DNA of 64,000 bases, from contig NZ_CP066167.1 in assembly GCF_016132545.1 (NCBI RefSeq), positions 1,453,001-1,517,000 of the forward strand, in the 5' to 3' direction. Of this stretch, positions 7,426-9,765 are shown piece by piece (the stretch's first letter is position 1; every line of letters begins with the position of its first letter). Position numbers and translations under genes: made by a program. The stretch comes from Spongiibacter nanhainus. Lineage in GTDB: Bacteria > Pseudomonadota > Gammaproteobacteria > Pseudomonadales > Spongiibacteraceae. The notes under the pieces are model-generated. The model was not told the origin of the DNA and did no database searches. It was given only the letters and a program-made list of their open reading frames with translations.

Positions 7426-7737
7426 TTGTCAGAAGAATTTACCCGTTTTTGCAAGGTAGAAGAATTGCCCTCCGGCGGCAAAAAAGCCGCCAAAATTAAC
7501 GATACCTGGGTGCTTGTATGCAATGCCAAAGGCAAATTGCTGGCGGTGTCTAACTGGTGTTCCCACCAAAAAAAGCCGCTGGTTAATGGCCGGTTGCGCA
7601 ACTGCGCCATCACCTGCCCAGTGCACGGGGCCAAGTTTAATCTCGAGACCGGTGAGGCCTTGAACCTGCCGGCGACACAGCCGATTCCCACGTATGAGGT
7701 TAGAGTCGTTGACGACTGGGTGGAGGTTAAGGTTTGA
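7426..7737 (+). CDS. Rieske [2Fe-2S] ferredoxin
   Basis: A 103-residue soluble Rieske ferredoxin with ligands C45, H47, C64 and H67 (C-x-H-x16-C-x2-H). Such proteins hand electrons from a reductase to Rieske oxygenases, and the neighbour upstream is one. No ATG is available near the conserved N-terminus; the TTG at 7426 is preceded by GAGAGG with 8-nt spacing and is the best start. No ferredoxin reductase gene occurs in the window, so the reductase must be encoded elsewhere. Confidence 0.9.
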   Translation: MSEEFTRFCKVEELPSGGKKAAKINDTWVLVCNAKGKLLAVSNWCSHQKKPLVNGRLRNCAITCPVHGAKFNLETGEALNLPATQPIPTYEVRVVDDWVEVKV

Positions 7738-7828
7738 CGCTGACGCGTCGGTTGGTTTTTTTGGTGCTCTGTCGAGTTTGTATTGGCATACAGACAGCAC
7801 GGGTTTCACTCGGGCCGTCCTTGGCCCT

Positions 7829-8416
7829 CGCCCTGCGGGCACTCTGTCGAGAGTGTATTTGTTATTCCATAGCAAGGGTTTCGCCCTGCTGGGCGAGTTC
7901 CTTTTCTTTGTTTGGCCAAAGAAAAGGAACCAAAAGAAAGGCCACCCTATCGCTCGCCCTGCCGGTTCCCTGCGCTTCTCGCCATTCAATGAAAACGCTG
8001 CGGAACTCGCCTGACGGCTCAAACAGTCCTCGCTAAAAGCTCTTTCATTGAATGGCTGCGATGCTCGGCGAGCTCAAAGGGGAATAAACCCCGGTGCCAG
8101 TAGCAAGAAAAGAACACGATCTTTTTCGGCGTGGCACCCCTGGGCCCCTTCAGGACCGCTGAGCATCGCAGGGGCAAAACGGAATAAGCGCGAGGACTGT
8201 TTGAGCGAAGCGAGTTCCGCAGCGCCCGTTTTGGCCCGAGAAGCGCAAGGAACTGCTGGCGTCTTTTTGCCAGCAGCGGTACTGCAGGGTGTCTTTTCTC
8301 TTTGCTTACTTTCTCTTTGGACAAGCAAAGAGAAAGTCAGTCGCCCAGCAGGGCGAAAATCGTGCTAAGAATTAGCCAATATCCCCTCGACAGAGTACCC
8401 AGCCCCCGGCAGGGCA
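7829..8416. repeat. Large concentric imperfect palindrome (intergenic element)
   Basis: The whole stretch folds back on itself about a centre near 8115. Perfectly complementary arm segments are 7841-7851/8386-8396 (11 bp), 7879-7896/8341-8358 (18 bp), 7997-8010/8210-8223 (14 bp), 8017-8033/8190-8206 (17 bp), 8056-8066/8161-8171 (11 bp) and 8093-8099/8132-8138 (7 bp). Each arm also holds a local hairpin: 7897-7910/7917-7930 (14 bp) and 8308-8319/8326-8337 (12 bp). Several overlapping short ORFs cross it, but none resembles a protein. It looks like a dispersed non-coding repeat of the kind often seen between genes in gammaproteobacteria; copy number elsewhere cannot be seen from this window. 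Confidence 0.85.
7982..8055. repeat. Nested 13-bp inverted repeat inside the palindrome
   Basis: CCATTCAATGAAA at 7982-7994 is repeated in inverted orientation at 8043-8055. It lies off the main axis, so it would compete with the long-range pairing of the left arm, giving an alternative fold. Confidence 0.7.
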
Positions 8417-8574
8417 CCATCCCCCACAACGCCCCGTCGCGCGCCAAGCGACACCACATCCCCCCGCATCTATTGCCAAAAGAATCGCACCCCCGGTGGA
8501 GAGCCCATGCCACCGATCTCATACTATTCTAGACTGTAAAGTAGTAACGACTAAAAACACTAAAGGAACACACC

Positions 8575-9765
8575 ATGTCCGCCGATTCCAAAGAACTTTC
8601 CGCGCAAATTGACCTCAGCGACCTGGACCGCCTGGTCGGCAAGGAAGTGGTTTTTGCCGAGTTGTGGGACCCCTGCAACGCCACTGATATCCGCCGTTGG
8701 GCCATGGCGATGGATAACCCCAGCCCGATTCATTGGGATGAGGAGTTCGCTAATGCCTCCAAGTTTGGCGGCATTATCGCGCCGCAGTCTTTTGCGGTGG
8801 CGATGGATTACGGTCACGGCTGTCACCCGGCGGGGGTGGGCAAAATCCCCGGTTCCCACCTGATTTTTGGTGGCGAGGAGTGGTGGTATTTTGGCACGCC
8901 GATTCGCCCTGGCGACAAGCTGTTTCAGAAGCGCCGCTTTGACGGCTACGACCTCAAGGAAACCGCCTTTGCCGGTCCCACGGTCTTCCAGCGCGGCGAC
9001 ACCGAGCACCGCAATCAGCACGGCGCTCTGGTAGCCCGGGAGCGGGCAACGTCGATTCGATATCTGCGTGAAGAGGCCAACAAACGTGCAGTGCATGGCA
9101 AGGAGCGGGCAGAGCCGCGGCGCTGGACCAAGGACGAGCTGAAAGAAATTCACAAGCTGCGCCATGAGTGGCTGATGTCCAACCGCGAGGGCCACTCGCC
9201 AGCCTACGGCGATGTGCAGGTGGGTGACAAGCTGCCACGCCGGGTGATTGGCCCCCACTCGGTGGTGACTTTTGTGACCGAATACCGCGCCTTCCGCCAG
9301 AACGTCTGGGGCACCTGGCGTTGGAATGTACCCGAGGGCAAGTACGACCCGGCCATGGAAGACGCCGGTTTTGCCGAGGACATGACCTACGACCATGAGG
9401 CCAAAAAAGTCGACCCCCGCATGGGCGACGGCCTCTACTTCGGGCCTTCAAGTGGCCACGTTAATCTGGAAAAAGCCGACAAAATCGGTCTTGGCGGCAT
9501 GTATGGCTACGGCGCGTCGATGAATGCCTGGCATGTGGATTACGTCGCCTACTGGGCGGGCCACGACGGTTATATCTGGCACTCCAAGACTCAGTTCCGC
9601 AACCCGGCATTTGAAGGGGATATCACTTACATCGACGGCGAGGTAATCGAGAAGAACGATCGCTCCGCCTTTGGCTGCCCCATCGCCACGATTCAGGTCA
9701 CCATGACCACCCAGGAAGGCGAAGTGATTCTCAAAGGCACCGCAGACGTCGAGCTGCCTCACTAA
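8575..9765 (+). CDS. Double-hotdog MaoC/FAS1-like dehydratase
   Basis: The 396-residue protein consists of two hotdog modules. The first (about 25-185) has an FAS1-type dehydratase look, with MDNPSPIHWDEEFA where acyl-CoA hydratases bind substrate. The second (about 215-390) carries HVDYVAYWAGHDGYIWHSKT and a typical FRNPAFEGDITY strand. The family hydrates or dehydrates enoyl/hydroxyacyl-CoA esters, often bulky ring-containing ones in sterol-type pathways. An AAGGAA ribosome site precedes the ATG. The acyl-CoA synthetase gene follows after 30 bp and is probably in the same operon. Confidence 0.82.
   Translation: MSADSKELSAQIDLSDLDRLVGKEVVFAELWDPCNATDIRRWAMAMDNPSPIHWDEEFANASKFGGIIAPQSFAVAMDYGHGCHPAGVGKIPGSHLIFGGEEWWYFGTPIRPGDKLFQKRRFDGYDLKETAFAGPTVFQRGDTEHRNQHGALVARERATSIRYLREEANKRAVHGKERAEPRRWTKDELKEIHKLRHEWLMSNREGHSPAYGDVQVGDKLPRRVIGPHSVVTFVTEYRAFRQNVWGTWRWNVPEGKYDPAMEDAGFAEDMTYDHEAKKVDPRMGDGLYFGPSSGHVNLEKADKIGLGGMYGYGASMNAWHVDYVAYWAGHDGYIWHSKTQFRNPAFEGDITYIDGEVIEKNDRSAFGCPIATIQVTMTTQEGEVILKGTADVELPH

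Follow-up and report, generated by a model that had tools for sequence, protein, structure and literature searches.

The window, the 64,000-nucleotide stretch of Spongiibacter nanhainus DNA analysed here, contains a large palindromic element. It lies in the gap between two genes of the + strand, one with a Rieske domain (7426-7737) and one that is FAS1_DH/MaoC-like (8575-9765). The concentric palindrome that an earlier note had placed at 7829-8416 is real: its arm pairs share centres at 8109-8119 and each arm carries hairpins of its own (7897-7930; 7981-7999/8038-8056; 8305-8340). The arms are matched at 78% (7837-7904/8333-8400), 94% (7965-7981/8237-8253), 100% (7996-8010/8210-8224 and 8017-8033/8190-8206) and 78% (8056-8082/8145-8171). 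Perfect 10-mer pairs with one centre cover 83 nt of the left arm, as against at most 13 in 200 dinucleotide shuffles, and the RNA minimum free energy of 7800-8450 is -351.3 kcal/mol (z = -24.8 versus 20 dinucleotide shuffles). The ends, on the other hand, had to be moved: they are better set at 7763 and 8399, where a terminal-repeat scan found terminal inverted repeats (GGTGCTCTGTCGAG / CTCGACAGAGTACC). Within these limits the element consists of two inverted units of ~200 bp. In each of them a long stem carries a core of ~30 nt (GAGGACTGTTTGAG-[tip]-CGAGTTCCGCA), and a CTTT-rich hairpin (K) follows 3' of the core. The features are as follows, with the basis of each in brackets.

7763-8399, no strand: whole element, from terminal inverted repeat to terminal inverted repeat, 637 bp (terminal-repeat scan; copies)
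7763-7776, +: left terminal inverted repeat GGTGCTCTGTCGAG, a second copy of which begins at 7838 (terminal-repeat scan)
7838-7896, +: outer module, left side, complementary to 8341-8399 (arm pairing, copies)
7897-7930, no strand: left K hairpin, GTTCCTTTTCTTTG with loop CAAAGAAAAGGAAC (local hairpin; K-like hairpin 3' of the core in other phyla)
7981-8056, -: left unit, stem 7981-7999/8038-8056 bearing the core (arm/hairpin scan, core alignment)
7999-8031, -: left core, tip variant CC-GTCA-GG (core alignment)
8083-8144, no strand: centre between both inverted units (arm pairing)
8172-8238, +: right unit, stem 8172-8182/8227-8238 bearing the core (sequence, DNA fold)
8192-8221, +: right core GAGGACTGTTTGAGCGAAGCGAGTTCCGCA, tip C-GAA-G (core alignment)
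8305-8340, no strand: right K hairpin (local hairpin; K-like hairpin 3' of the core in other phyla)
8341-8399, -: outer module, right side (arm pairing, copies)
8386-8399, -: right terminal inverted repeat (terminal-repeat scan)

Reading frames of ~100 codons are open across the element, and the element itself gives rise to spurious ORFs (core frames include RGLFERSEFR and EDCLSEASSA). Three such ORFs from the window and two like them from other loci had no Pfam or NCBIfam match at E up to 1. A conserved peptide as the product of the element was rejected, because these ORFs match no family and because three real genes, described below, read the core in three different frames. Rfam likewise has no family that reaches gathering score in the window, and in six other core-bearing loci two tRNAs, away from the core, were all that reached it; with E up to 10, sixteen matches appeared (microRNAs, a snoRNA, a viral 5' UTR, sRNA P6), all far under gathering.

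Copies in the genus and a core found across phyla

The palindrome is not solitary. The host genome, a single contig of 4.08 Mb, has six copies in all: the one in the window and five more, which are 86-93% identical to it and lie in both orientations. Others are found in relatives. Both terminal repeats are present in five of the six host copies, whose lengths are 637, 561, 633, 628 and 554 bp; ends resembling GGYNCYCTGTCG bound the window copy, L046, L048, L049 and L050, while L047 has the left end only. No target-site duplication was seen by eye in five host copies, the outermost ends of L046 and L050 being uncertain. The five other copies are flanked by ten ORFs, none of which is a transposase: two have no Pfam match, and eight belong to families of metabolic or housekeeping enzymes.

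A match was found in 24 of 57 related genomes: all 18 of the genus (host included), all three others of the family and three among the 36 that represent the rest of the order. In relatives, matches to query 58-273 (the left half) and to query 327-540 (the right half) are also found separately, which resolves the giant palindrome into two inverted units. A fuzzy pattern detected 53 cores in 46 sources (the window, five host stretches and 40 stretches from 14 other genomes of the genus, family and class), with none in some of them; by eye, most of the stems pair and many differ. At the L277 locus, genome G008 has kept K and lost the core half, and neither this locus nor that of the window yielded an empty site with exact DNA ends. 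L277:393-504 is a different dispersed repeat, ~110 bp long, with many matches in the genus at 74-81% identity.

The core reaches much further. Its 23-mer GACTGTTTGAGCGAAGCGAGTTC is matched exactly in at least 120 stretches of public genomes (genome_contigs), whereas the chance expectation is ~0.007 by arithmetic. By record title, the matches listed span eight phyla. The 120 listed comprise 40 from Bacillota (nearly all Lachnospiraceae), 29 from Pseudomonadota, 21 from Patescibacteria, 16 from Bacteroidota and 10 from Nitrospirota, with one each from Nitrospinota, Desulfuromonadales, Gastranaerophilales and one other bacterium; some of these names were assigned to their phylum by common taxonomic usage. 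Several listed stretches come from one genome and most are metagenome-assembled genomes (MAGs), so some cross-phylum records may be mis-binned; those without a MAG label include Zooshikella ganghwensis, Marinobacter sp. BW6, Iodobacter, Pseudobutyrivibrio sp. YE44 and Spongiibacter marinus. Our searches of open-licence PMC papers turned up elements of a related kind but no name for this core and no account of it.

In 20 core-bearing genomes the core (at most 3 mismatches) occurs 1-19 times per genome, and its reversed control never. Among 96 unique instances, GAG precedes the search pattern in 90-92 and CGCA follows it in 87-93, beyond which the information drops to almost zero. These 96 instances, and the 112 used below, were picked by an exact or near-exact core pattern and many share a genome; invariance inside the pattern is thus by construction, and the independent evidence for the core is the flanking GAG and CGCA, the stems, the tip variants and the count of exact matches. 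The exact core is rare and patchy, being present at up to 2 mismatches in 4 of 274 genomes of the class (host included) and in 2 of 379 genomes of the phylum of the core-bearing Parcubacteria genome (that genome included). A looser pattern matched 23 of the 274 class genomes, but outside the host and G187 it gave 26 matches versus 18 for the reversed control, so that these may be mostly chance.

A K hairpin of at least nine pairs stands 3' of the core in 31 of the 96 instances and 5' in one; for random windows the figure is 14 of 595. Among the 28 hairpins whose positions were listed, the distance from the pattern is 62-77 nt in 22 and 117-135 nt in six. None of the 24 labelled Lachnospiraceae instances has it. 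With the whole element as query, ten records of the plasmid collection matched the K part alone, and the four of these examined (Burkholderia twice, Aeromonas, Pasteurella) contain K without the exact core. In the two Burkholderia records this hairpin lies in a spacer, at L255:1501-1549 and L257:1501-1549, the former flanked by annotated aceF and lpdA. The Pasteurella multocida record (L256:1498-1915) has the same K-arm-centre-arm-K layout with other inner sequence, between dapF and a DUF484 gene. In two plasmids of Bacteroidota (L320, L323), a core variant is followed by a K-like hairpin.

Stems, tips and genomic placement

Stems unrelated in sequence between taxa nevertheless pair: 82 of 94 reach a complementarity score of at least 16, versus 3 of 94 with swapped partners. 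Across 112 sequences the covariation score is 0.377, against 0.136 ± 0.010 for shuffled and at most 0.152 for slid alignments, and 79.4% of cells are paired versus 63.9 ± 0.9% after shuffling. Two of five covariation measures do not rise above shuffles, namely pairs changed on both sides (reached by 113 of 500) and further pair types (49 of 500). One core pair is C-G instead of G-C in L291, L292 and L295. The arm covariation that the earlier note had named as decisive, together with further copies, is therefore present.

Tips, which lie between TGAG and CGAG, are of variable length. In a fuzzy scan 191 distinct ones were collected, most of them probably chance matches; 35 of the 191 form hairpins by a simple rule, versus 4 among 165 matches of the reversed control. 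GNA or GNNA loops close 20 of these 35: 14 are GNA triloops, with all four bases represented, and six are GNNA tetraloops (GTCA, GACA, GATA twice, GTTA, GAAA); GCTA occurs in G187. The dominance of GAA by count is partly due to its presence in the search pattern. The other 15 have loops such as AAA, CAA, TACA, CTTG, CGTG or TTTTT, and genome G061 has longer tips with ACA, TACT and TTCA-like loops beside longer-still tips ending in GC-GNA-GC. RNA tetraloops follow the rule GNRA, which five of the six distinct GNNA loops (GTCA, GACA, GATA, GTTA, GCTA) break and GAAA alone keeps. The tip hairpins thus favour the DNA mini-hairpin rule, GNA/GNNA, over the RNA rule. According to PMC4686876, extra-stable DNA mini-hairpins are GNA or GNNA loops on at least two G-C pairs, for example d(GCGAAGC). 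The tips share these loops and pairs; the mini-hairpins are described there as an aptamer tool, whereas here they would be part of a genomic repeat.

Folding energies are less telling at this scale. Whether the right core is folded as DNA or as RNA, the minimum-energy structure pairs GTTT with AAGC and lacks the C-GAA-G tip. Judging from the sequences, we prefer the C-GAA-G tip, because the common TGTCTGAG and GNA variants would disrupt the minimum-energy fold. DNA folding did not exceed shuffles for the isolated 53-nt core (z +0.48) or the L062 unit (z -0.64). Presumably the core could also form sheared tandem G-A pairs.

The element prefers gene ends. The 110 deduplicated instances divide into 34 in tandem gaps, 23 in convergent gaps, 5 in divergent gaps, 21 inside ORF proxies and 27 at locus edges; the 62 between ORF-based gene proxies are thus split 34/23/5, versus 405/91/93 for background gaps. 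Within tandem gaps the core runs against transcription in 20 cases and with it in 14 (p = 0.39). As to the replication strand, no clear bias was seen in a hand count on one chromosome with a guessed origin, where 8 of 14 cores point one way.

In 12 of 124 instances the core lies inside frames that extend at least 60 codons to each side, several of them spurious. Three are real genes of Patescibacteria, in which the core is in-frame in three different frames: the serine hydroxymethyltransferase gene glyA (L062; SHMT, E 1e-145), recJ (L162; TIGR00644 above cut-off) and a PIF1-like helicase gene (L166; E 1.8e-35). Units within genes are read in both orientations. Absence of the insert from a relative was compared for glyA, where the unit is ~84 nt: relative G348 has 9 residues between LR and NG as against 37, a difference of 28 codons. 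Another glyA (L250, genome G347) has a 30-bp perfect palindrome without the core at the site where G060 carries the core hairpin.

A probable mobile palindrome and the ways it could move

A shared transposase beside the core was discarded. When ORFs of 100 aa or longer from the 120 listed exact-23-mer loci were compared with one another by BLASTP, the 25 largest clusters were seen to be housekeeping, regulator and transport genes plus ORFs made by the repeat, and none of them was recognised as a recombinase. Phage or plasmid cargo was rejected too. The exact 23-mer has no match in viral_contigs, the whole element none in phages, and a 34-base core query none in plasmids or phages by megablast. 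By blastn that query found partial cores in 9 plasmid records; it also matched 82 phage records, one with a coverage of at least 80%, the 20 shown having E 1-4; in E. coli 5 of 5,426 genomes had a match, of 18 bases only. In four of six plasmid records examined (Butyrivibrio, Parabacteroides, Variovorax, Aureibacter) the core stands on a stem by fold, that of Butyrivibrio pNP243 being very long (-108.2 kcal/mol for 204 nt). At L319:401-422, in a Butyrivibrio fibrisolvens plasmid, a core variant sits on a very long, near-perfect stem.

We consider it rather probable that this is a dispersed, non-coding mobile palindrome of two inverted units, read as folded single-stranded DNA by a factor acting in trans. 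We infer that DNA is the active form and that an enzyme supplied in trans moves the element. The core would fold as a DNA hairpin capped by an extra-stable mini-hairpin of the GNA/GNNA type, and a putative recombinase or replication factor, encoded outside the element, would recognise it. Its spread, inside a genome or from one genome to another, would most likely take place in the single-stranded state that arises in replication, repair or DNA uptake. Since only the core and the ability to pair would be retained, the stems would drift by compensatory change.

The rival we take most seriously, though it is unlikely and weaker than the reading as folded single-stranded DNA, is that the element acts as RNA, being transcribed at the ends of genes to serve as an mRNA stabiliser, a terminator or a small RNA. 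The very stable RNA fold and the preference for gene ends speak for it; the orientation of cores in tandem gaps, the tips that break the GNRA rule, the lack of an Rfam family at gathering in the window and at the core of six other loci, and the reading of gene-internal units in both orientations speak against it. Less probable still is mobilisation as a conventional MITE, with a DDE transposase acting on the terminal inverted repeats: ends like GGYNCYCTGTCG do bound five host copies, but no target-site duplication was seen, single units without a partner exist in the genus, and the cross-phylum core would be left unexplained. We know of no parent IS with the ends of the element. Even when a superfamily of REPs or MITEs is spread over several phyla, any one family usually stays, in its sequence, within related species. 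The idea of a functionless, one-off inverted duplication has the palindromic shape in its favour and nothing further; six copies, the relatives, the cross-phylum core and the covariation leave it practically no probability, and copies and covariation likewise dispose of chance.

A REP/BIME-type element moved by a RAYT (Y1 transposase), a match for which the earlier note had proposed looking, is very improbable. Mostly intergenic palindromes in inverted pairs recall BIMEs, and the Y1 transposase domain PF01797 is present in 8 of 21 core-bearing genomes, one of which (G057) has 13 cores. However, it is absent from the complete host genome, for which RAYT mobilisation is rejected; altogether 13 of the 21 lack it, including two of Nitrospirota (14 and 19 cores) and the Parcubacteria genome (9 cores). 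Nor is a GTAG tag conserved at the core stem in the 96 instances, the adjoining bases being CGAG and CGCAG. According to PMC3733652 and PMC8266576, REPs with RAYTs of the GTAG superfamily are likewise dispersed intergenic palindromes, often in inverted pairs, and are recognised as folded single-stranded DNA. They differ from the present element in their tag, in their RAYT, in having no single core across phyla and in length: 20-50 nt there, from 84 bp to over 600 bp here (554-637 bp in host copies with both terminal repeats). The CGTC-tagged REPs described in PMC3733652 also occur in several phyla, have intragenic copies and lack a dedicated transposase; their stem is 8-9 bp with a loop of 4-5 nt and mostly a CCA tail, whereas here a ~30-nt core stands on a stem that is often far longer.

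Other likenesses are by description. The Rickettsia palindromic elements are also in-frame palindromes in genes of unrelated function; PMC3767692 and PMC10969869 report them from Rickettsia and Wolbachia, whereas the core spans phyla. Cozzuto et al. 2008 (PMC2267715) describe stem-loop families, one of which, Ppu-1 of P. putida (617 bp, 39 copies), is alike in size, intergenic place and folding.

Taken together, the results suggest that this family of mobile palindromic DNA is new. More tentatively, the folded single-stranded DNA could be a pan-bacterial, gene-less element whose ~30-nt hairpin is read by a conserved chromosomal enzyme, putatively common to Pseudomonadota, Bacillota, Bacteroidota, Nitrospirota and Patescibacteria: a bacterial counterpart of SINEs, defined by DNA shape and not by terminal sequences. 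That the stems preserve nothing but their pairing, while the ~30-nt core they carry persists from phylum to phylum, points to a widespread factor able to read the fold. Finding such a factor would explain how repeats with no genes of their own pass from one distant bacterium to another and enter essential genes, and it would provide a natural role for DNA mini-hairpins of the GNA/GNNA type.
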